Positions 10,462 to 42,903 of a stretch of DNA of 64,000 nt are shown one piece after another. This DNA comes from Candidatus Kryptobacter tengchongensis (GTDB lineage: Bacteria > Bacteroidota > Ignavibacteria > Kryptoniales > Kryptoniaceae), in the NCBI GenBank assembly GCA_001485605.1, contig FAON01000012.1:186001-250000 (forward strand). The letters are read 5' to 3'. The notes beneath the pieces are model-generated. The model saw only the letters and a program-made list of their open reading frames with translations. It did not search any database and had not been told where the DNA came from. The position numbers were made by a program, and so were the translations under genes. Position 1 is the first letter of the stretch. Each line of letters starts with the position of its first letter.

Positions 10462-13400
10462 ATGAAACGCTTTTTCATCTCCCTTGTTTTTATTTTAACC
10501 TTGAGTTCAATGATAGTTGCACAGCAAGGTCCTTTTGGGAAAAACAAGGTTCAGTATAAGGATTTTGCTTGGTATTTTATACGAACTGATCATTTTGACA
10601 TTTATTTCACCGATGGCGGTTATGAGCTTGCAGAATACACTGCAAAAGTAGCTGAGGATGCTTATGTTAAAATAAGCAAGCTTTTAAGGTATGAGATAAT
10701 AAACCGCATTCCAATAGTGGTTTATAATTCGCATAACGATTTTCAGCAGACAAATGTTGTAATGGAGTATCTTGAGGAGGGAATTGGTGGGGTGACTGAG
10801 CTTTTCAAGAATAGAGTTGTCGTCCCGTTTGAAGGTTCATATAGACAATTTCGTCATGTTATACATCATGAGCTTGTTCATGCTGTTATGAACGATATGT
10901 TTTACGGTGGTTCACTTCAATCTGCATTGATAAATAACATTCAACTTCAGCTCCCGATGTGGATAGTTGAGGGTTTGCCAGAGTTTTCCGCTTTAAGATG
11001 GGATGTTAATTCTGATATGTTCATGCGTGATGCGGCTGTGAGCGATTATCTTCCGCCGATAGAGTATCTTGATGGTTATTTCGCTTACAGGGGCGGACAA
11101 TCTGTTTTCTGGTATATTTCAAGAAAATACGGTGATGAAAAGATTGGTGAGCTTATAAACAGGATTAGAGGTTTGAGAAGTGTTGAAGCCGGGATAAGAA
11201 GCTCACTTGGGATGTCTTTAAAAGAACTTTCCGACAGATGGATGAGGGAACAAAAGAAGTTATACTGGGCTGACTTTGCAAAAAGGGAAGCCCCAGATGA
11301 ATTCGCCAAACGATTAACAGATCATACGAAGCGAAATCATTTTTATAACACAAGCCCTGCTATTTCTCCAACGGGTGATAAAATTGCTTTTATCTCCGAT
11401 AGAGATGACTATTTTGATGTTTTCATCATGTCCGCAATTGACGGGAAAATCATAAAAAAGATTGTAAAGGGTAATAGAACTAAAAATTTTGAGGAGCTTC
11501 ATCTTCTAACGCCTGGGCTAACATGGTCTCCGGATGGGAATAAAATAGCACTTGCTGTAAAGAGCGGTGAGCGTGATGCAATTTTCGTAATTGATGTTAA
11601 AACAGAGAAACAGCAGAAAATAACATTTGATCTTGATGGCATTTTTTCTGTTGATTGGTCAAGGGATGGGACAAAACTTGCTTTCGTTGGTTTGAAACAT
11701 GGACAATCAGATATTTATGTTTATGATCTTTTAAACAAAACGCTTGTTAATTTAACAGATGATATTTTCAGTGATGCTGATCCAGTTTGGTCGCATGATG
11801 GGAAATTGATTTACTTCTCTTCCGACAGGAAGGATTTCATTTCAAAAGATTTTATCCCGCAAGATTTTAGAATGTATAATTTTGATCCAAACCAATATGA
11901 TATTTATTCCATTGATATTGAAACCCGTGAGATTAAGCGAATAACGCACACGGATTACTGGGATGAAACATCACCTGTTGTTTCCCCTGATGGAAAGAAG
12001 ATTTTGTTTATCTCGGACAGAAATGGAATTAACAATATTTATGAAAAAGATCTTGAAACTGGAATTGAAAGACCTTTGACAAATTCTTTAAGTGGAATTT
12101 ATCAGTTGTCAATTACATATGATGGTTCAAAACTTGCATTTTCATCTTTTTACAATGGTGGTTTTGATATTTTCCTTTTGCGTCAGCCATTTGAGAGGAA
12201 GCTGAATGTGCAGGAGCTTGAGCCAACTGTTTTTGTTACTGAATTTTTGAAGGAAAAAGAAAGAGAACTTGCAAAAGCTAAAAAGTTGGAGCAAGAAACC
12301 ACGAAAGCTGGTTCTGATTCAACATCAATTCAACCTTATGGAAGTGATATAAAAGTTAACTTACGAAGTTATATTTTCGCAGACATATTCAGACATGATA
12401 GCCTTGCAATGTCAATTAAAACTCGTTTGGACTCATTAACCCCTCCAGATAACATTGATGAATCTGGTCGTTATAAAGTTTACAGATATAAAGTTAATTT
12501 CACCCCAGATTTAATTTATACAAATGCGAGTTATAGCACTTTTTATGGTGTTCTTGGTGAGGCGTTTATGATGTTTAGCGATATGCTCGGGAATCATCAA
12601 ATTTATTTGATCACGAGTCTTGTGTTTGATTTGAAAAATAGCGATTATGCCTTTGCTTATTTCTACCTTCCGAAGAGAATCAATTGGGGAATTGAGGCTT
12701 TTCACATAGCAAGATTTTTTGGTGTTGGCGATCAGTATTATCCGCTTTATTATAGATATAGATTATACGGTGGGACATTGATGGGGTCTTATCCAATTGA
12801 TAAATTTAGAAGGATTGATTTCGGGCTTGGATATTATAATGTTGTTGGTGAATATATTGATTTTCCAGAGATAGGTGAGCGCTCAAGCATTTTAATGCCA
12901 TCGGTTACTTATGTTCATGACAATTCCCTTTGGAGATATATATTCCCATCAAATGGTGAAAGATATTATATTTCGCTTTACGCAAGCCCTAAGCTTGGCT
13001 CAAGTAGCATTCAGTTTTTAACAGGGATTTTTGATTATCGTAAGTATTTCCGTTTGTGGAGTGATTATAGTTTTGCTTTTAGATTTACGGCTGGTGGAAG
13101 CACCGGCAAAAATAAACAGCGTTTCATGCTCGGTGGAGTTGATGCATGGATAAATTGGGCTATTAAAAATGATTACATACCGATTGAGAACACAGCTGAT
13201 TTCTTTTTCTTTGAAGCCATATCTGGACCAATTGTTCCATTGCGTGGATATGTTTACAATGAGCAAAATGGTTCAAAGTTTGCTCTTATGAACCTTGAGT
13301 TCAGATTTCCGTTGATAAGATATTTCATCGGTGGGGCTTTGCCACTTGCATTTAGAAATATAATGGGTGTCATATTCCTTGATATGGGTTCGGCTTGGGA

Positions 13401-13599
13401 TTCATGGAGATCTTGGCGTGCATTTTATGAACCAGATCCATTTACTGGAACTGTGACAAAGGATTTGTTAATTGGAACTGGATATGGTTTTAGAATTTAT
13501 CTGTTTGGGCTTTTGCTGCGTCTTGATATCGCATGGCGATTTAATTGGGGCTCATTTTCAAAGCCAGTTTATTATTTCTCTTTTGGTCCGGATTATTGA
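10462..13599 (+). CDS. Outer-membrane protein: zincin domain, TolB-like propeller and BamA-like barrel
   Basis: About 1045 residues from the ATG at 10462, chosen because AGGAGG lies at 10447-10452 and a signal peptide (MKRFFISLVFILTLSSM) follows. Residues 30-280 look like a peptidase-MA/gluzincin domain: HELVH at 136-140 with a downstream WIVEGLPEF that could give the third zinc ligand. Residues about 300-600 contain repeated PD40/TolB blades, such as SPAISPTGDKIAFISDRD and SPDGKKILFISDRN. The last 350 residues are strand-rich and end in an aromatic residue series (YYFSFGPDY), as in BamA/TamA-type outer-membrane barrels. Related three-part proteins occur in FCB genomes, often annotated as Tol or surface-antigen proteins. 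The substrate and role are unknown. The barrel implies the other domains hang in the periplasm or outside, which I cannot decide. Confidence 0.8.
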   Translation: MKRFFISLVFILTLSSMIVAQQGPFGKNKVQYKDFAWYFIRTDHFDIYFTDGGYELAEYTAKVAEDAYVKISKLLRYEIINRIPIVVYNSHNDFQQTNVVMEYLEEGIGGVTELFKNRVVVPFEGSYRQFRHVIHHELVHAVMNDMFYGGSLQSALINNIQLQLPMWIVEGLPEFSALRWDVNSDMFMRDAAVSDYLPPIEYLDGYFAYRGGQSVFWYISRKYGDEKIGELINRIRGLRSVEAGIRSSLGMSLKELSDRWMREQKKLYWADFAKREAPDEFAKRLTDHTKRNHFYNTSPAISPTGDKIAFISDRDDYFDVFIMSAIDGKIIKKIVKGNRTKNFEELHLLTPGLTWSPDGNKIALAVKSGERDAIFVIDVKTEKQQKITFDLDGIFSVDWSRDGTKLAFVGLKHGQSDIYVYDLLNKTLVNLTDDIFSDADPVWSHDGKLIYFSSDRKDFISKDFIPQDFRMYNFDPNQYDIYSIDIETREIKRITHTDYWDETSPVVSPDGKKILFISDRNGINNIYEKDLETGIERPLTNSLSGIYQLSITYDGSKLAFSSFYNGGFDIFLLRQPFERKLNVQELEPTVFVTEFLKEKERELAKAKKLEQETTKAGSDSTSIQPYGSDIKVNLRSYIFADIFRHDSLAMSIKTRLDSLTPPDNIDESGRYKVYRYKVNFTPDLIYTNASYSTFYGVLGEAFMMFSDMLGNHQIYLITSLVFDLKNSDYAFAYFYLPKRINWGIEAFHIARFFGVGDQYYPLYYRYRLYGGTLMGSYPIDKFRRIDFGLGYYNVVGEYIDFPEIGERSSILMPSVTYVHDNSLWRYIFPSNGERYYISLYASPKLGSSSIQFLTGIFDYRKYFRLWSDYSFAFRFTAGGSTGKNKQRFMLGGVDAWINWAIKNDYIPIENTADFFFFEAISGPIVPLRGYVYNEQNGSKFALMNLEFRFPLIRYFIGGALPLAFRNIMGVIFLDMGSAWDSWRSWRAFYEPDPFTGTVTKDLLIGTGYGFRIYLFGLLLRLDIAWRFNWGSFSKPVYYFSFGPDY

Positions 13600-13618
13600 A
13601 AATTTTAGTAGATTTGTG

Positions 13619-14326
13619 ATGACATTTCAAAAAATTGATGGAATTATTAAGCACTACGATAGAGTTATAAAGGGAGTAGATAAAAAGGCGAAATTAAGTA
13701 AGAAAAGAGCTTATGGTGGTGTGCTTAGGGCAGAAAAGGGCAGATTGGTTGAGGAAATAACCAAAAAACTTATAAAAATAGCCTGGGAAGACATCTTGAA
13801 TCAAAGCTCAAAAAATTTGCAATTTATTAGTCAAAAGTTTCAGATCCCAATAAGAAATGAGTATATAGAAAGATTAAACGATGAGGAACTAAAAAGATAC
13901 ATCCTTGAAAATAAAAAAGATTATTTCTACGAATACAAGCCAGATATCGTTGTTTCAATCAGTGATAACATAGTGATGTTTGTGGAGTGCAAATCTTATA
14001 CCGAAAATGCTATGTTTAAGCGTATTTTGGTAGATTTCCACTTACTGAAAACTTTATATCCAAAAGCAGATTTTGTCCTTGTCCAACTTGAGAGTCAATT
14101 GGGTGGTGATTATTCAGAGTTGAAAGAAAAAGTTTTTGGAAGTCCCCAGACTCATACTTTGCTTTCCTATTTTGATGTTGATATTGAAATAATTACATTA
14201 CTTAAAGGAGAAAGACAAGTTGATAAACCAATACACAAAAGAGAATATTTTAAACCATTAACGAGAGAAAGTTTAGAAAGAGCAATTAAAATTATAGCAA
14301 GAAAGCTGAGAAAATGGGCAAGTTAA
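13619..14326 (+). CDS. Type II restriction endonuclease (PD-(D/E)XK fold)
   Basis: 235 residues from the ATG at 13619. The reading frame runs further upstream, but that part overlaps the barrel gene and looks like a shadow. A PD-(D/E)XK core is visible: PDIVVSI at 108-114, then MFVECKS with Glu123 and Lys125, and a possible metal-binding Glu in the helix RLVEEITKK near 45. This fold cleaves DNA with Mg ions. Its stop overlaps the start of a DNA methyltransferase gene by 13 bases, the standard layout of a type II restriction-modification pair. The recognition sequence cannot be read from the protein, and I do not recognise its named family. Nothing suggests truncation. Confidence 0.78.
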   Translation: MTFQKIDGIIKHYDRVIKGVDKKAKLSKKRAYGGVLRAEKGRLVEEITKKLIKIAWEDILNQSSKNLQFISQKFQIPIRNEYIERLNDEELKRYILENKKDYFYEYKPDIVVSISDNIVMFVECKSYTENAMFKRILVDFHLLKTLYPKADFVLVQLESQLGGDYSELKEKVFGSPQTHTLLSYFDVDIEIITLLKGERQVDKPIHKREYFKPLTRESLERAIKIIARKLRKWAS

Positions 14327-15558
14327 AAGATTTTGAAAATCAAAGAGCGGGAAGATTGATTGAATTTAATGGGCAAAAATATAAATTGATATCAGTCCCG
14401 TATAACCTTTCTTTAGATGAGATTAATTTTCTAAAGCAAATTTCAAATTTGTTTGATAAGAAAGATTTTTTTATCAATGCGGGGGAAGATAGGATTGAAA
14501 TTTATTTAAATCGGATTAATTTGGATGAGTTTATTAAAAAAACTGAACTAATTTTAGAAGGTAACGAGAGGCGGAAAGCTCTTTTTGAGAAGATTCTTGA
14601 AGGTATTGACTCAATAAAAAGCTACGGTTTAAAAAGTGGGCAAAGAGTATATGTTGATTATGATAAAGAAAGAAAAGTTAAATCCCGAAAAGAAAAGGAG
14701 AGAGAAAGGGGGAAATACTTTTATGCATTAAATCACAACTTTGAAAATAAAAATAATGATCTCCCAAAAGAGTTTGAAAATAAAATTATATGTGGGGATA
14801 GCGAGAAAATTTTAAAAGCTTTTCCCGACAACTGTATAGATTTAATTTTTACTTCACCACCTTACAATTTCGGCTTAGATTACGAAAATCACCGAGATGC
14901 CATGTCTTGGGAAAATTATTTTGAAAAACTTTTTAAGATTTTTGATGAATGTATAAGGGTTCTGAAATTCGGGGGAAGGATAGTTGTAAATGTTCAGCCC
15001 TTGTTTTCGGATTATATCCCGATTCATCATATAATTTCCAATTTTTTCATGAGTAAAAAGCTTATATGGAAAGGCGAGATAATCTGGGAAAAACATAACT
15101 ATAATTGCAAATATACCGCCTGGGGAAGCTGGAAAAGCCCAAGTAATCCTTATCTAAAGTATTCCTGGGAGTTCCTTGAAATTTTCTCAAAAGGTAGTTT
15201 AACTCATAGAGGTAGAACCCGTGAAACAGATTTGACAGCCGATGAGTTTAAAGAGTGGGTTTATGCAAGATGGGATATAGCTCCAGAAAAGGATATGAAG
15301 AAATGGGGGCATCCTGCTATGTTCCCAGAGGAGCTGGCAAGAAGGGTTATAAAACTTTTTACATTTAAAGGGGATGTTGTCTTAGACCCCTTTAATGGCG
15401 TTGGAACCACTACAAAAGTTGCAAAAGAACTCGGGAGAAAATTTATCGGAATTGATATATCCGAAGAGTATTGTTTAAAGGCTGAACAAAGATTAAGTGA
15501 AGTTGGGGTTAAAAGGCGGAAGGAGCCTGAAAGGATCATGTTGAAATTGTTTGATTAA
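14314..15558 (+). CDS. DNA methyltransferase of the restriction-modification pair (beta class)
   Basis: A 414-residue protein. Motif IV TSPPYN lies at 180-185, which marks an amino-methyltransferase (N4-cytosine or N6-adenine; TSPPY is more common among N4-cytosine enzymes). The SAM-binding motif I (VLDPFNGVGTT) comes near the C-terminus at about 355-370, followed by FIGIDI. Motif IV before motif I is the beta-class order. HPAMFPEELARRVI before motif I is also typical. The N-terminal 150 residues are an extra charged region with no recognised domain, perhaps taking part in target recognition. It would methylate the site cut by the overlapping upstream endonuclease and protect the chromosome. 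Confidence 0.88.
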   Translation: MGKLKDFENQRAGRLIEFNGQKYKLISVPYNLSLDEINFLKQISNLFDKKDFFINAGEDRIEIYLNRINLDEFIKKTELILEGNERRKALFEKILEGIDSIKSYGLKSGQRVYVDYDKERKVKSRKEKERERGKYFYALNHNFENKNNDLPKEFENKIICGDSEKILKAFPDNCIDLIFTSPPYNFGLDYENHRDAMSWENYFEKLFKIFDECIRVLKFGGRIVVNVQPLFSDYIPIHHIISNFFMSKKLIWKGEIIWEKHNYNCKYTAWGSWKSPSNPYLKYSWEFLEIFSKGSLTHRGRTRETDLTADEFKEWVYARWDIAPEKDMKKWGHPAMFPEELARRVIKLFTFKGDVVLDPFNGVGTTTKVAKELGRKFIGIDISEEYCLKAEQRLSEVGVKRRKEPERIMLKLFD

Positions 15559-35042: not shown

Positions 35043-36206
35043 ATGTCGGTTGCATACCTTGGTATAGGTTCAAATCTTGGCGATAGGATCAAATACATAA
35101 CAAGGGCTCTTGTTGCCTTATCAAAACTTCCAAAAACAAGGATAACACGAGTTTCATCTTTATATGAGACCGAGCCATACGGTAGAAAGGATCAGCCATG
35201 GTTTATAAATATCGTTGTTGAGATATTTACTGAATTAAGTCCGTTTGAACTTTTTAAAAAGTGCAAGGCGATAGAAACGAAACTTGGTCGTCAAACTCGT
35301 GAAAGATGGGCGGAGCGTGAAATTGACATTGATATTCTTTTATACGACGACCTTGTGATCTCGGCAGAGGAACTTCAGATTCCACATCCGGATATGCATA
35401 ATCGTCGTTTTGTTTTGATACCGCTTGGTGAGATTGCCCCAGGGGCATTTCATCCAATTTTTAAGAAAAGCATTTCGGAACTTTTAATTGAGTGTAAGGA
35501 CACAACAAGGATAATTCACATTCCACAAAAAATAGATTTGAAAAACATAATAGAGCCAGAGGTGAGAGAGATAAAGTATATAGCAATTGAAGGAGTTATA
35601 GGCGCAGGCAAAACATCACTTGCGAAAATGCTTGGTGAGCGCCTTAACGCAAAAATTATCCTTGAACAGTATTATGAAAACCCATTCCTTGAAAAATTTT
35701 ATCAAAACAGGGAAAGATATGCATTTCAAACTCAGATATTTTTCCTTTTAAGCCGATATCGTCAACAGATGGAACTTCTGCAAAGGGATTTATTTCATGA
35801 GTATTTGATAACGGATTATATTTTTGACAAGGATAAAATTTTCGCACATATTAATTTAAGGGGAGACGAACTGAAACTTTATGAGATGCTTGTGAGTCTG
35901 CTTGAGAAAAATATCCCTGTGCCTGACCTTGTGATTTATCTTCAGGCAAGCGTTGAAAGATTAATGTTTAATATCCGAAAGCGTGGGCGACCGTTTGAGA
36001 GAAATATAACCGAAGATTATATTCGTGAGCTTTCTGAAGCATATAATGAGTTTTTCTTCAATCAATATAAAAAATCGCCAGTTCTTGTCATAAATGTGAC
36101 GGATATTGATTTCGTAAATAGCATGGAAGATTTTGAAGATCTGATGGAAAAAATTTTAAGTCCAAGGAAATCTTTCTTTGAATATTATAACCCTGGAAAA
36201 AAGTAA
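35043..36206 (+). CDS. FolK-deoxynucleoside kinase fusion protein
   Basis: A 387-residue two-domain protein. Residues 1-160 are 6-hydroxymethyl-7,8-dihydropterin pyrophosphokinase (FolK): YLGIGSNLGDRIKYI, SSLYETEPYG, the paired Asp95/Asp97 in EREIDIDILLYDD, and HPDMHNRRFVL. Residues about 178-375 are a deoxynucleoside kinase of the dNK/dGK family, with P-loop GVIGAGKTS (184-192), TDYIFDKDKIFA and a LID Arg series (FNIRKRGRPFERNI). The first half makes the pterin pyrophosphate for dihydropteroate synthesis; the second phosphorylates deoxynucleosides for salvage. No stop or frameshift separates them. The linker is short (about residues 161-177). Nucleoside specificity cannot be read. Confidence 0.9.
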   Translation: MSVAYLGIGSNLGDRIKYITRALVALSKLPKTRITRVSSLYETEPYGRKDQPWFINIVVEIFTELSPFELFKKCKAIETKLGRQTRERWAEREIDIDILLYDDLVISAEELQIPHPDMHNRRFVLIPLGEIAPGAFHPIFKKSISELLIECKDTTRIIHIPQKIDLKNIIEPEVREIKYIAIEGVIGAGKTSLAKMLGERLNAKIILEQYYENPFLEKFYQNRERYAFQTQIFFLLSRYRQQMELLQRDLFHEYLITDYIFDKDKIFAHINLRGDELKLYEMLVSLLEKNIPVPDLVIYLQASVERLMFNIRKRGRPFERNITEDYIRELSEAYNEFFFNQYKKSPVLVINVTDIDFVNSMEDFEDLMEKILSPRKSFFEYYNPGKK

Positions 36207-36377: not shown

Positions 36378-37544
36378 ATGAAAGGAATTAGAGAAACCTT
36401 CAAAAAGATTGATCCTTTCAGAAACAAGGGAATAAAATTATTTTTTATCAACCTTCTGAAGAAGTTTTTTAAGGATCAACTTTTGGTAAGGATTGACAAA
36501 TCGGAAAGAGTGGATATTAATTTCGGGGATGTGAAAAAAATTTTAATTGTGAGACAGCACAATCAGCTCGGGGATATGCTCTGTGCAGTTCCTCTTCTTA
36601 GGGCTATCCGTCAGAGGTTTCGGAATGCAAAAGTTACGCTTATTACAAGCCCTGTAAATTATGAGGTGGTTAAAGATAACCCATTTGTTGATGAAGTTTT
36701 AAATTTTGATAAGGTAAAATTTTTTATATCACCTTCAAAGATTTTTGAATTTGTAAGAAAGCTTAAATCTGGTTTTGACATTGCAATTGTCCCTGTGACT
36801 GTTTCAATTTCAACGACGAGTAATTTGCTTGCTTATTTTTCAAATGCAAGAGTTCGCATTGGACCTGCGTCGCTTGACGGAAAGGAAAATCCGACAGCAT
36901 TTCTTTTCAATTATCAAGTTGATCTTGACTGGCGAAGTGAGGAGAAAAAGCACCAGACGGAGAGAAATCTTGATATTGTGCGACCTTTTGGAATTGACAC
37001 AGATGATTTAAGTTATGTTATTCCGTATTTTGATGAAGACAGGGAATTTGCGGAAAAAATTTTGAGCATAGGTGGAAATTTTAGATTTGTGATCGGATAT
37101 CATCCGGGGGCTGGAAAAGTGAAAAACAGATGGAGCGCGGATAATTTTGCGGAACTTGCTCTTAAACTTGCCAACAAGTTCAACGCTTTTACGCTGATAA
37201 CCGCTGGACCAATGGATGATGAACCTGTTGAGAGAATGAAAAAACAAATTGATGGTAAGATTGAATATCTCATCCTGAGGAATGAAAGAATTAGCAGAAT
37301 AGTTGCAGTAATTGATAAAATAGATCTTTTCATCACCAACGACACAGGTATAATGCATGTTGCTGGAGCGACATCCACGCCCGTAATTTCCCTTTTTGGC
37401 TCAACCAATCCATATCAATGGTCCCCACTTAACAAAGATAAGTTTTTCATTTGGTCAAGAACGGGAGATATAAACGATATAAAGATTGAAGAGGTTTATA
37501 AGCTTGCTGTGGAAATTTTGAGTAGAAAAAGTAAATCAGCGTGA
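36378..37544 (+). CDS. Glycosyltransferase family 9 (heptosyltransferase-like)
   Basis: A 388-residue protein with GT9 signatures: ILIVRQHNQLGDMLCAVPLLRAI for the N-terminal Rossmann domain, GYHPGAGKVKNRW in the middle, and TNDTGIMHVAGATSTPV with SLFGSTNPYQW near the end. GT9 enzymes add heptose or related sugars to lipopolysaccharide inner core or other envelope glycans using ADP- or nucleotide-sugars. The exact sugar is not known. It has no signal peptide and acts at the cytoplasmic face. Confidence 0.9.
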   Translation: MKGIRETFKKIDPFRNKGIKLFFINLLKKFFKDQLLVRIDKSERVDINFGDVKKILIVRQHNQLGDMLCAVPLLRAIRQRFRNAKVTLITSPVNYEVVKDNPFVDEVLNFDKVKFFISPSKIFEFVRKLKSGFDIAIVPVTVSISTTSNLLAYFSNARVRIGPASLDGKENPTAFLFNYQVDLDWRSEEKKHQTERNLDIVRPFGIDTDDLSYVIPYFDEDREFAEKILSIGGNFRFVIGYHPGAGKVKNRWSADNFAELALKLANKFNAFTLITAGPMDDEPVERMKKQIDGKIEYLILRNERISRIVAVIDKIDLFITNDTGIMHVAGATSTPVISLFGSTNPYQWSPLNKDKFFIWSRTGDINDIKIEEVYKLAVEILSRKSKSA

Positions 37545-37555
37545 ACTGTAAATTC

Positions 37556-40500
37556 TCAGTAAATTTTCACTTTTTTGACAAAATTATCAACTTCCTTTCT
37601 AAATTCAATTACTTTATCTATGAAACTTTCTTCGCCATTTTCTATCTTATCCACTGCTTCAAGGACAATTCTTGTTCTTTCCTCATTTATGAGTGGTTCA
37701 TACTTTGAGATTAAAAAATTGAAAACATTGAAGCCAAGTCGTGTTCCTGCTAATCTTCCATTAAAGCTTTGAACATAGCCTCTATCTTTAAGTTTTTGCA
37801 CGGTTGGAGCATAGGTGCTGGGTCGTCCGATTCTTTTTTCTCGCATCAATTGGATTAGGTTTGCTTCGGTGTAAAGTGGTTTTTCGCTGATGAGACGAAC
37901 TTGGAGTTGTGTTATTTTATATTCACCTGGCTTGATCACTCCTGATGTTTTTATCGGTGAAATTAAGTTAAATCCATTTTCAACCACTTCACCAGTAAGT
38001 TGAAATTCTTGGATAATATCACCAAGTTGGGCTTTAAGCTTATAAATTCTAATCTTCGCTGATGACATCTGGCTTGCGATGAAGCGTTTAAAGATAAGAT
38101 CATAAAGTTTTATATGTTTTTTGCTTAACTTCGTTTGCAGGAGTAAAAGTTTTGCGTCAATATCTGTTTCAAGTTCAAACGAGCTAAGGGGTCTTGTCGG
38201 TCTTATGCATTCGTGTGCTCCCTCTTCGGTTGCCCAGGTTCTGGCTTTAAAATAGGAAGAAAGGTTTTCTCGCTCAAGATATTGACGAGCTAGGTTAATT
38301 CCAAAATTACTCACCCTAATTGAATCCGTCCTATGATATGTGATTAAACCGCTTTCAAAAAGTTCCTGGGCAAGCGACATGACATCACTTGCTGGAAGAT
38401 TGAGGGTATAAATTCCATCTTGGAGAAGCGAATCAGTTGTATAGGGTGGCAACGGATTTTGCTCGGTTATTTCCTCGCTTAGATCAAAAATTTTGACAGA
38501 TTCAATTGATTTTATTTTTTCTGATTCCTCAGGTTGTGCTGTAAATGTCAAACGCAGATTATTTTCAAGCTGGACATTTATCTGTGCAATTTTCTTTTTG
38601 CTTTCCTTTGTTCTTTCACATACCCAGCCAAGGACTGGTGTTTGAACTCTTCCGGCGCTTAAATCCTCACGATTAAATTTTTTCTGAACTATTTTTGAAA
38701 GCTCAAGCCCTATCCATGCATCCTCAACTTTTCTTAAGATCTGCGCTTTCAAAAGGTTTAAATCAAATTCTTCTGGGTTTTTAAGCCCTTCAATAATTGC
38801 TCTTTTTGTGATCTCATGCCATCTTAATCTTTTTATATTTTGGTTGAATGGGTAAAGCAGGCATTTCAGATCCCAGGCAATTTTTTCACCTTCGGCATCG
38901 GGGTCGGTTGCAATTAAAACCTCGTCAACATTTTCCGCGAGTTTTTGAAGTGATGCGACTACATCTGGTTTTGTAATTTCAAATTTCACCTCAAGTTTTG
39001 AATCAATAATCTTCGCCCCAAATCCAGGTTGCCTTATGGCAAGGTCTGTAATATGTCCGCGTGATGCGGTCACAAGAAGAAGCATATTCGGTGCCATAAC
39101 CTCAAAGACCTGTAATCCATCAATCTTGCTTTTTAATGGCTTACCGAAGAAATAACTTATTGTTCTTGATTTTGTGGGCGATTCAACAATGAGAAGCTGG
39201 GAGTTAAATTCTATATCAACCCCAACCTTAAGCTCACGTGTAAGATTTATCTCTTCAATAACTTTTTCAATGTCAAGCTCTTTGATGTTCACAAATTTAA
39301 CATCAAGCGGTTCAAGTTGTTCTTTCATTAGCTCAAATGCCCTACGATCATCAATCATCAGAATTGAAAGCCCTTTGGTTAAGCCTCCAATTGTTAATCT
39401 ACTTGTTCGTCCCGATGCCTGAATGTAAGCAAATGAGTCAGGAGTTACAATAGAATTTCCTGAAATTCCAGTTTTTTCAATTATCTCACTTCTTGATGAA
39501 ACTTGGTTGAAAAACTCAAGTGATTCAATCATCACCTTATAGGCAAACTTCATAAAATCTGAAACTTTATCCGAATCAGGGTTGAAATCTTTTGACTTTA
39601 TCTTTTCAAGGTTTGACGGTGTGAGGTCAATTATTTTTGAGAGATTTTCAATTATGTCAATTGCTTTTTGTCTTTCTTCTCCTTCAAGATGTTTTGTGAT
39701 ATGGCTTATGGCTATAATCATTTTCCTTGGTGAGAATGTCTCGCGATCAATGGTTATTTCCATTCTTGGAATTTCAAAAAATATTGTATATCTCAAAGCG
39801 GTTGGGAGGTCAACACCGCGCACGAGGGAGGAGCGTCGGGATGAGGTTCCGATGAGGACATCAATTTCACCATTCTCAAATGCTTGAAATATCTTTTTTG
39901 AAGCTTTTACATATGCTTTTGCCTTTATCCCATTTTCAGAGAGGAAGTCAGCAAGTTGCTCTGCTTTTTCGCTACCTCTGACATAAACTATTGCGCCACG
40001 CCCAAGTTTTCTTATAAGCTCAATAAGTTCTTCTTTCATTTCTTTTTCAGGGATGTAGTAGGCATCAATTATATTTCGTGTGAATGAATAAGTTTGCCCA
40101 ATGTCAAATCCGAATATCTCCCTTAAAATTTTGACTCGTAGAGTTCTTTTCGCTGTTTGTGTGGCGCCAGAGATTACGATTTGTCCATTGTTGATTTTTA
40201 TCTTTGAACGAACTTCGCTTATATTTTCATCCTCAACCTTTTTGCTGACGATTTTTTTCGCAAGTTCAATTTGTTCTTCGGTTATACCTAAAATTTTTAG
40301 CACCGTATCTATTGCTTGTGATCTACGGAGGAATCCGTCAACATCATCAATGAACACAGCATTGGTTCTTAAGGATTCAAAAAGTTTTTTATTTCTGACG
40401 ATTGAAGCAGATGTTGTTATGATTACATCTGCGTTGCTTATCTCATCTGGCTTTGGTTTTGGGGCGAGGGAGTGTATTTGAACGATTTTTTTATTCCTTG

Positions 40501-40825
40501 CGAAGTTTTGAATTTTTTGGGCAACTTGAAAAGCAAGGGTTGAGTTAGGGAGGAGTATAAGTGATTTTTTTAGAAGAGCCAGTGCAATGGTCGTCGTTGT
40601 TTTACCGCTTCCCGTTGGTGCAAGCATTGCGAAACTTTCGCCCTTTAAGAATCTCCTTGCCCATAATCTTTGTGCACCCCATGGTTTGAAGCCAAATGGT
40701 TCAAAAATTTTATCTATATCTTCGTGAACGATTTTATTGAGTTTAATTTTACCGCTTAAGAGCTCATCAAGCGTTGCGCTTTCGGAATCGTGAAAATTCA
40801 AGTATATCACATCAAGGTCTTGCAT
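37556..40825 (-). CDS. rgy: Reverse gyrase (helicase-topoisomerase IA fusion), zinc-finger-less
   Basis: A 1089-residue protein. Residues 1-530 are a superfamily 2 helicase module: Walker A LAPTGSGKTT (68-77), the reverse-gyrase type DDVD box (160-163), ISGAT (218-222), GVDLP (337-341) and motif VI ASGRTSRL (470-477). Residues 540-1089 are topoisomerase IA: toprim Glu548 in LLIVESPTK, DPDAEGEKIAWD (641-652), SAGRVQTP (723-730) and the catalytic tyrosine Tyr830 in GLITYHRTDS. Reverse gyrase adds positive supercoils using ATP and is a hallmark of hyperthermophiles and some thermophiles. Only three cysteines are present (655, 736, 873), so neither the N-terminal nor the internal four-cysteine zinc finger exists. 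It is divergent from coaBC. No inactivating change is seen in the catalytic motifs. Confidence 0.96.
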   Translation of the reverse strand: MQDLDVIYLNFHDSESATLDELLSGKIKLNKIVHEDIDKIFEPFGFKPWGAQRLWARRFLKGESFAMLAPTGSGKTTTTIALALLKKSLILLPNSTLAFQVAQKIQNFARNKKIVQIHSLAPKPKPDEISNADVIITTSASIVRNKKLFESLRTNAVFIDDVDGFLRRSQAIDTVLKILGITEEQIELAKKIVSKKVEDENISEVRSKIKINNGQIVISGATQTAKRTLRVKILREIFGFDIGQTYSFTRNIIDAYYIPEKEMKEELIELIRKLGRGAIVYVRGSEKAEQLADFLSENGIKAKAYVKASKKIFQAFENGEIDVLIGTSSRRSSLVRGVDLPTALRYTIFFEIPRMEITIDRETFSPRKMIIAISHITKHLEGEERQKAIDIIENLSKIIDLTPSNLEKIKSKDFNPDSDKVSDFMKFAYKVMIESLEFFNQVSSRSEIIEKTGISGNSIVTPDSFAYIQASGRTSRLTIGGLTKGLSILMIDDRRAFELMKEQLEPLDVKFVNIKELDIEKVIEEINLTRELKVGVDIEFNSQLLIVESPTKSRTISYFFGKPLKSKIDGLQVFEVMAPNMLLLVTASRGHITDLAIRQPGFGAKIIDSKLEVKFEITKPDVVASLQKLAENVDEVLIATDPDAEGEKIAWDLKCLLYPFNQNIKRLRWHEITKRAIIEGLKNPEEFDLNLLKAQILRKVEDAWIGLELSKIVQKKFNREDLSAGRVQTPVLGWVCERTKESKKKIAQINVQLENNLRLTFTAQPEESEKIKSIESVKIFDLSEEITEQNPLPPYTTDSLLQDGIYTLNLPASDVMSLAQELFESGLITYHRTDSIRVSNFGINLARQYLERENLSSYFKARTWATEEGAHECIRPTRPLSSFELETDIDAKLLLLQTKLSKKHIKLYDLIFKRFIASQMSSAKIRIYKLKAQLGDIIQEFQLTGEVVENGFNLISPIKTSGVIKPGEYKITQLQVRLISEKPLYTEANLIQLMREKRIGRPSTYAPTVQKLKDRGYVQSFNGRLAGTRLGFNVFNFLISKYEPLINEERTRIVLEAVDKIENGEESFIDKVIEFRKEVDNFVKKVKIY

Positions 40826-40868
40826 TTTCCATTTTTGAGATTTGTTTTTGGGAAAAATTTTTTAAATT

Positions 40869-40897
40869 TTGGTATGCAGGTTTTCGGTTTTTATTTA
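40869..40897 (+). promoter_or_regulatory. Possible promoter for the coaBC-udg-dnaB-comM run
   Basis: TTGGTA (40869-40874), 17 bases, then TATTTA (40892-40897), 33 bases before the coaBC start in the 105-base divergent gap with reverse gyrase. The downstream sequence TATTTAATTTG is close to the Bacteroidota -10. A tentative match. Confidence 0.4.
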
Positions 40898-40930
40898 ATT
40901 TGTTAAATAAACTTTAAAGTTTCAAGTTCA

Positions 40931-42163
40931 ATGCTGGAGGGCAGGAAAATAGTTGTTGGTGTAACAGGTGGAATTTCAGCATATAAAACTTGTTATGTTG
41001 TTCGTGGCTTGAAAAAGCTTGGGGCTGATGTTAGGGTTGTGATGACGCCGTCAGCAACGCAGTTTGTAACCCCGCTTACATTTTCAACTCTTTCAGGAAA
41101 CGAGGTGATCGTTGATATGTTTCCGGCGTCAACACATCAAGGGACGAGTGTTCGCACATGGCACATTGACCTTGCTCTCTGGGCTGAACTTATGCTTATA
41201 GCTCCTGCGACTGCTAACACGATTGCGAAAATTGCCCATGGTATTGCCGATAATTTTTTAACATCACTTGTTCTCGCCGTGCGATGTCCCGTTGTGCTTG
41301 CGCCCGCTATGGATGTTGATATGTATTTAAATGAGATCACACAACGAAATTTGAAAATTTTAAAAGAGCTTGGCTATTTGATCATAGAACCTGAAGAAGG
41401 GGAACTTGCAAGTGGGCTTGTTGGGATTGGGAGAATGGCTGAACCTGAAAAGATTGTTGAGTTTGTGAAGGACTTTTTCGCTGGTGTTAAATTTGATCTG
41501 AAGGGCAAAAAGATATTGGTCACAGCAGGTCCGACATATGAACCAATTGATCCAGTTAGATTTATAGGAAATTGGTCATCTGGGAAGATGGGATTTGAAA
41601 TTGCAAAGGCATCTGTGCATCGGGGGGCAGATGTAATTTTAATTTCAGGTCCAACATATCTTAACACCCCAAAAAATGTAAAGAGAATTGATGTTGTGAC
41701 ATCTGATGAAATGTTTGATGCTGTGGTCAAATTTTATAATGAGGTTGATGTTGTTATAATGTCAGCTGCGGTTGCAGATTACGCTCCAGCTCAAAGGTTT
41801 GAGAAGAAGCTTAAGAAAGAAGATTTACCCGAAGGAATGCTTGAATTAAAGTTGAAAAAGACAAAAGATATTCTTAAATATCTTGGAGATAACAAAAGGA
41901 ATCAAATACTTGTTGGGTTTGCGCTTGAGACTGATAATGCGTTTGAAAATGCAATTCAAAAATTAAAACAAAAAAATCTTGATTTCATTGTTCTTAATAC
42001 ATTGGGTGAAGGTTCAGGTTTTGGATGTGATACGAACATAGTGACGATAATTTCAAAAGATGGGAAAGTTGAGAGTCTGCCGAAGATGACAAAGTATGAA
42101 GTTGCTCATAAAATTCTTGATAAGGTTTCGCAGATGTTTAATAAAGGTGAGGCAAAGGGATGA
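40931..42163 (+). CDS. coaBC: Bifunctional phosphopantothenoylcysteine decarboxylase/synthase CoaBC
   Basis: A 410-residue protein. The N-terminal flavoprotein decarboxylase half (CoaC) shows VVGVTGGISAYKTCYVV, the catalytic-His region TWHIDLALWAELMLIAPATANT and the PAMDVDMYLN substrate motif. The C-terminal synthase half (CoaB) shows LVTAGPTYEPIDPVRFIGN and SSGKMGFEIA, then AAVADYAP. It makes 4'-phosphopantetheine for coenzyme A in two steps. It is coupled by a four-base overlap to the uracil-DNA glycosylase gene. Confidence 0.96.
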   Translation: MLEGRKIVVGVTGGISAYKTCYVVRGLKKLGADVRVVMTPSATQFVTPLTFSTLSGNEVIVDMFPASTHQGTSVRTWHIDLALWAELMLIAPATANTIAKIAHGIADNFLTSLVLAVRCPVVLAPAMDVDMYLNEITQRNLKILKELGYLIIEPEEGELASGLVGIGRMAEPEKIVEFVKDFFAGVKFDLKGKKILVTAGPTYEPIDPVRFIGNWSSGKMGFEIAKASVHRGADVILISGPTYLNTPKNVKRIDVVTSDEMFDAVVKFYNEVDVVIMSAAVADYAPAQRFEKKLKKEDLPEGMLELKLKKTKDILKYLGDNKRNQILVGFALETDNAFENAIQKLKQKNLDFIVLNTLGEGSGFGCDTNIVTIISKDGKVESLPKMTKYEVAHKILDKVSQMFNKGEAKG

Positions 42164-42903
42164 AAAGGGAAATAAAAAAGGTTTTAGATGAGGCGAAGCG
42201 ATATTTGATTCAGCAGGAAAGTTTGTTTGGGGATGAGATAGTTTTACCAAAGGGTGAAGAAGAAAAAGAAAAGCAAACTCAACATGAGCAAGCTTCAGCT
42301 AAAAAAGCGATAGGAGACGAACAATTTGGGGTTGATCCAACATGGGTGGACTCAAAAACACTTGATGAACTTGAAAGGAAGATAAAGAATTGTGTTAAGT
42401 GCCCGCTTGGGAAAATGAGAACAAATTTTGTCTTTGGTGTTGGAAATCCCAACTCTGAGGTCGTTTTTATAGGTGAAGCTCCAGGGGCTGATGAAGATTT
42501 GCAGGGTGAACCGTTTGTGGGAAGGGCAGGTCAACTTTTAAATCAACTTCTTGCAGGAGTTGGATTCAGAAGAGATGAGGTTTATATTTGCAATGTTTTA
42601 AAATGTCGTCCACCCGGGAATAGGGATCCACAAACCTCCGAGATAGAAGCATGTAGTCCGTATTTAATAAAGCAACTTGAGATAATTAAACCAAAATTGA
42701 TTGTTTCGCTTGGGCGTTTTCCGGTTCAGACACTTTTGAGAACTAACGCATCGCTTACTTCACTTCGTGGACAAATTTTTGAATGGCGCGGAATTAAAAT
42801 GATTGCGACATATCATCCAGCAGCAGCTTTAAGAAATCAGCAATGGAAGCGACCACTTCTTGAGGATTTACGCAAAGCGCGGGAGATTCTTTATGGGAAA
42901 TAA
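42160..42903 (+). CDS. Uracil-DNA glycosylase, family 4 (Fe-S)
   Basis: A 247-residue protein. After a charged N-terminal region of about 70 residues comes the family-4 core: iron-sulphur cysteines in CVKCPLG and, later, [12 protein letters not shown] and EACSPYL, the [20 protein letters not shown] motif and the C-terminal YHPAAALR. It removes uracil produced by cytosine deamination. Family-4 enzymes are common in thermophiles, where deamination is fast. The charged N-terminal stretch resembles the DNA polymerase-fused or SPO1-type extension but is too short to be a polymerase. Confidence 0.93.

Follow-up and report, generated by a model that had tools for sequence, protein, structure and literature searches.

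The gene considered here encodes a reverse gyrase on the minus strand of the window, as we call the whole 64,000-nucleotide stretch of DNA that was analysed. Reverse gyrase, an enzyme of the hottest-living microbes, overwinds DNA: an SF2 helicase module is coupled to a type IA topoisomerase, and positive supercoiling is driven by ATP. The genome of the window (G000) was compared with four congeneric genomes (G406, G407, G409 and G410), and the features on which the comparison turns are the following, with Zn1 and Zn2 denoting the two zinc fingers.

36378 to 37544, plus strand: glycosyltransferase resembling heptosyltransferases, which borders the rgy site, or the corresponding empty site, on the left (TIGR02201 at E 8.5e-27, which is below the cut-off; synteny).
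37556 to 40825, minus strand: rgy, the finger-less reverse gyrase, 1089 residues from an ATG start (NCBIfam, Pfam and PDB matches).
38336 to 38338, minus strand: codon of the catalytic Tyr830, within SGLITYHRTDS (sequence inspection).
38936 to 39016, minus strand: residues 604-630 in the Toprim region, with the Zn2 loop deleted between 617 and 618 (alignment).
39443 to 39763, minus strand: latch, residues 355-461, 107 residues inserted in H2 and flanked by the conserved base strands (alignment to residues 389-459, the latch of the T. maritima enzyme).
40595 to 40621, minus strand: Walker A motif APTGSGKTT, residues 69-77 (motif alignment).
40727 to 40825, minus strand: residues 1-33, a short N-terminus in place of Zn1 and its linker, with no cysteine and a net charge of -3.
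40826 to 40930, no strand: intergenic stretch of 105 bp between the divergent starts of rgy and coaBC, without coding room for a finger.
40931 to 42163, plus strand: coaBC, which borders the rgy site on the right in G000, G406 and G410, and the empty site in G407 and G409 (TIGR00521; synteny).

The open reading frame matches the NCBIfam model TIGR01054 (rgy) with 947 bits (E 1.3e-284; cut-off 471.7), contains the Pfam domains DEAD, Toprim and Topoisom_bac, and matches the solved enzymes of A. fulgidus (PDB 1GL9, E 2e-161) and T. maritima (PDB 4DDT, E 3e-159). Its SF2 helicase module (Walker A, DDVD, motif V, motif VI) is fused N-terminal to the type IA topoisomerase. In an alignment with rows for T. 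maritima, A. fulgidus, Thermus and five Bacillota enzymes beside the finger-less orthologues, the motifs APTGSGKTT, DDVD, SGAT, VRGVDLP, QASGRTSR, VESPTK, DPDAEGE, GRVQTPVLGWV, ITYHRTDS and GAHECIRP are intact, and the acidic residues of Toprim are kept in VESPTK and DPDAEGE. An earlier note on this DNA had claimed a full set of helicase and topoisomerase IA motifs with the catalytic tyrosine at 830; every motif inspected was indeed found, and the rgy match lies over the cut-off. Helicase motif III (about residues 219-223) reads SGATQ, a one-residue insertion relative to the SSAT of most other enzymes, and the insertion is common to all three finger-less orthologues.

The same note had described a protein with neither zinc finger, three cysteines and no CxxC pair, and this description is confirmed: the only cysteines are at 655, 736 and 873, the number of [CH]xx[CH] pairs is zero, and the orthologues in G406 and G410 are finger-less as well. 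In the alignment, residue 34 falls on residue 64 of the T. maritima enzyme, the Zn1 cysteines of which lie at 11-32; about 30 T. maritima residues carrying Zn1 are without a counterpart, and the helicase core is preceded by 33 residues as against 63 in Thermotoga. Some 27 alignment columns that hold the Zn2 loop, and in T. maritima, A. fulgidus and four Bacillota enzymes a CxxC..CxxC pattern, are a gap in all three finger-less orthologues. That most known reverse gyrases have an N-terminal finger agrees with our own sample, in which Zn1 is present in 10 of the 10 other enzymes with a readable N-terminus (T. maritima, two Thermus, five Bacillota, G858 and a fragment from G409, all of them bacterial). 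Zn2 is more variable than Zn1, given that the Bacillota enzyme G574 is without the Zn2 cysteines and Thermus retains only two. The Zn2 motif is conserved in 62% of reverse gyrases (PMC6878951), and its loss is already common. Zn1 is a usual part of the family without strictly defining it, and Zn2 does not define it either.

Among characterised enzymes, that of T. maritima (PDB 4DDT and others; 35% identity) has the same domain order and all the helicase and topoisomerase motifs, but it also has Zn1 (Cys 11, 14, 29, 32), Zn2 (CRDC..CPVC) and a latch of 71 residues, whereas the window enzyme has neither finger and a latch of 107. The A. fulgidus enzyme (PDB 1GKU/1GL9; 35.5% identity), weakly the nearest row by tree path, shares the architecture but has Zn2 (CRDC..CPKC) and a shorter latch. 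A functional Zn2 is likewise missing from many TopR1-like enzymes and from G574; however, G574 retains Zn1 and the Zn2 loop, with the cysteines alone changed, whereas the window enzyme has lost the loop itself as well as Zn1.

The finger-less form is conserved in two congeners. The orthologue in G406 has 1089 residues (Cys 656, 737, 874; 80% identity to the window protein) and that in G410 has 1088 (Cys 655, 736, 873; 82% identity). Between G000 and G410, rgy shows a dS of 1.59 and a dN of 0.11; between G000 and G406, with synonymous sites saturated, pS is 0.78 and pN is 0.12. The neighbouring coaBC has a similar substitution pattern. Given that finger-less orthologues occupy the same site in two congeners under such selection, assembly error and decay are excluded; judged by its substitutions, the finger-less rgy is under purifying selection and is neither an error nor a decaying gene.

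How DNA might be gripped by such an enzyme was considered from the latch and the N-terminus. Measured over the same columns, the latch has 107 residues in the window enzyme, 71 in T. maritima, 70 in A. fulgidus and 70-100 in the other enzymes compared. According to PMC10233626, the latch contacts DNA and, where it is largest, forms an L-shaped helical domain; at 107 residues, that of the window falls in the long-latch class of the same study. Structure models were made for residues 1-250 alone and for the whole protein with rows from phage topoisomerase I; they are of low confidence over the helicase and the N-terminus (mean pLDDT 52 and 57.5), and too weak to bear on either of these or on the Zn2 site. 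A model whose overall confidence is low predicts latch helices at 366-377, 383-399 and 419-443, the last of them long and flanked by the shorter ones. The compensating basic patch that had been suggested was not seen in the N-terminus or the latch, each of which carries a net charge of -2 to -3; since neither is basic, simple charge compensation is not supported. The window genome also encodes one GyrA-family type II topoisomerase subunit and TopA, and hence the finger-less enzyme would act beside a normal bacterial topoisomerase set.

From these sequence features, we conclude that the protein is probably a reverse gyrase of a deep lineage that works without both fingers. The intact motifs speak for an ATP-driven separation of strands by H1/H2, linked to strand passage within the topoisomerase ring. 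Because the fingers are absent, the contacts with DNA would come from the RecA cleft of H1/H2, the ring formed by T1-T4 and the long, helical latch; the fingers would be aids to affinity or processivity and not core parts. According to a passage of PMC6878951 that cites Li 2011 and Rudolph 2013, Zn2 is needed for DNA binding and supercoiling, though not for ATPase activity or relaxation. Since Zn2 has been published as important in this way, weaker or less processive supercoiling is predicted.

Given this published role of Zn2, the activity of an enzyme lacking both fingers might be limited to the relaxation or annealing of DNA. Coupled positive supercoiling would then have been lost, the protein would be an ATP-modulated relaxase or a DNA-renaturing or DNA-protecting protein, and the sister species would have regained supercoiling by importing the zinc-finger type. 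In its favour are the importance of Zn2 for positive supercoiling in tested enzymes, as given in that passage of PMC6878951, and the two independent zinc-finger replacements described below, which could reflect a functional gap. Nevertheless, all helicase motifs and the large latch have been kept under purifying selection, and it is common for natural enzymes to have no conserved Zn2 (38% according to PMC6878951; also G574). We therefore regard a loss of supercoiling as rather unlikely, and retain the reading of a working, finger-less reverse gyrase.

Synteny around the rgy site is conserved in the five genomes, and the finger-less gene occupies the site in G000, G406 and G410. The corresponding interval between the two neighbours is empty in G409 and G407, where it measures 120 bp and 227 bp, respectively, and part of the coaBC-side intergenic DNA is still recognisable there. 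Both genomes encode a zinc-finger reverse gyrase instead: that of G407 has 1064 residues on a truncated contig and a Zn2-like CPNC..CSC, while that of G409 is present as two end fragments, one with a Zn1 of CPNC..CENC. These enzymes are of the same genus and presumably fill the same cellular role as the finger-less one, but they are fingered, GC-rich, encoded at other loci, and found in species without the finger-less gene. The reverse gyrases of G407 and the window are 36% identical, as compared with 77-95% for most ordinary neighbour proteins between these species. The GC content of the finger-less gene is 0.373 (GC3 0.31), like that of its neighbours in a genome region of 0.37; the zinc-finger copies have 0.50 (GC3 0.51) in G407 and 0.46 in the G409 pieces.

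The zinc-finger gene of G407 adjoins an MscS gene 83% identical to its G000 counterpart, and that of G409 adjoins a gene whose product bears a type IX secretion sorting domain; from these neighbours, both contigs are of the genus. In G409 the MscS locus is intact and contains no reverse gyrase, so that the zinc-finger genes lie at different loci in the two species. The contig of the G407 gene (contig 13; L090) also carries, at 10758-14622, a gene of the Csm6 type (cas_NE0113) together with a CRISPR-like array that has the 30-bp repeat GTGAGAATTGAACCAGTGTGGAATTTAAAC and a period of about 66 bp.

Trees of TopA and of eight syntenic proteins pair G000 with G407 (94/97) and G409 with G410 (100/100) and leave G406 outside, with a weakly supported root (54/28); the two empty-site genomes thus fall in different sister pairs. 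G000, G410 and G406 have the finger-less gene at exactly the same site, which argues for ancestral presence and two losses, the alternative being three independent insertions there. We infer from this arrangement that the finger-less enzyme is an old resident, ancestral to the sampled species, and that the zinc-finger type replaced it at least twice; the incoming enzymes, able to do the same job, would have displaced it each time.

A different history is that the common ancestor had both reverse gyrases and that differential loss left one in each species, so that the zinc-finger type would be no newcomer. This concerns history, and is compatible with our best explanation of function. The known genomes do hold one type each, and the long-branch tree described below places neither type firmly; however, the zinc-finger copies are GC-rich relative to their genomes (0.46-0.50 versus about 0.37), and their loci differ between G407 and G409. 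An ancestor with both types is consequently unlikely, and replacement of an old resident remains our preferred account.

The short N-terminus deserves separate attention. The three finger-less orthologues share 67-73% identity over residues 1-33, which are hence under constraint, as would fit a zinc-free Zn1 fold with its cysteines replaced and a grip persisting without metal. By eye, GKIKLNKI can also be aligned with GLxCxxCL. On the other hand, phmmer found no match between residues 1-33 and Zn1 of the solved structures, and the linker length is unsuited; a degenerate Zn1 fold is thus not supported by the comparison, and we hold it to be improbable. As for fingers that exist but are masked by a frameshift, a wrong start or an assembly error, of which the earlier note had named an upstream frameshift or misassembly as what would undo its claim, the sequence refutes them and we give them next to no credence: three independent genomes agree on the finger-less form, the rgy-coaBC gap (105-108 bp, and 105 bp in the window) holds no CxxC in any frame in any of the three, and the Zn2 loop is gone from within an intact reading frame.

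With respect to origin, 1 of 395 genomes of the phylum and 5 of 391 of the class score over the rgy cut-off, and none of 13 genomes from the order's sister family has a reverse gyrase. Given this rarity, an old transfer likely brought the finger-less gene into the lineage. The proposal of the earlier note that the gene was acquired by transfer therefore holds in part: the gene is rare in Bacteroidota, but within the genus it is best read as inherited, with a host-like GC content and one site in three species. Since the finger-less form is ancestral on the species tree and appears to have been replaced twice, recent transfer explains the zinc-finger copies and not the finger-less gene; the best reading is that transfer accounts at most for the old arrival of the latter, and that the recent arrivals are the zinc-finger copies of two sister species. 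The genome of the window probably belongs to 'Ca. Kryptonia', a hot-spring FCB lineage in which, according to PMC4737851 and PMC6878951, every genome has a reverse gyrase, transferred from Thermoproteales; the transfer published in PMC4737851 may concern the zinc-finger type.

In a tree of 14 sequences, the branch of the finger-less type is deep and long (100/100; length 1.6), its neighbours are weakly supported, and a single clade of finger-less and zinc-finger types is not formally rejected (p-AU 0.074). A scan of genome contigs with the window protein as single query gave no reverse gyrase. Viral contigs searched by protein, by alignment and by the pattern ITYHRTD gave topoisomerase matches and no reverse gyrase, a phage collection scanned for reverse gyrase gave no match, and a plasmid scan gave reverse gyrases from Thermus only. 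One of these, on plasmid pTP143 of Thermus parvatiensis (L052), has a frame that breaks after some 390 residues, and its annotated start falls inside the helicase part. Another family of the same class has a zinc-finger reverse gyrase (L105; G858 contig 42, 810-4183) with a frame broken near GRVQ, either by a sequencing error or as a pseudogene.

We found no description of a reverse gyrase without both Zn1 and Zn2 in a search that stopped short of the main structural and review literature, with archaeal sequences unsampled. It is tempting, though still somewhat doubtful, to see in these sequences a distinct, deep-branching, zinc-finger-free subfamily that would supercoil positively by way of a long latch and has been swapped more than once in one genus. 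If this is true, the fingers are optional for the cell. It is still debated, mostly from mutants of fingered enzymes, which parts of reverse gyrase make an overwinding machine out of an ATP-driven helicase and a topoisomerase that relaxes DNA. A finger-less natural enzyme, with a fingered one in close relatives whose genomes are otherwise much alike, offers a natural test in which the role of the fingers can be compared directly.

The wider neighbourhood of rgy has two further features of its own. At 35043-36206 (plus strand) of the window, a single gene joins FolK (HPPK, residues 5-133) to a deoxynucleoside kinase domain (residues 180-371), and five genomes of the genus have this fusion in the same position. 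On the other side, coaBC is followed by a family 4 uracil-DNA glycosylase (42160-42903, plus strand) and then by DnaB, a DNA maintenance neighbourhood that is kept in five genomes.
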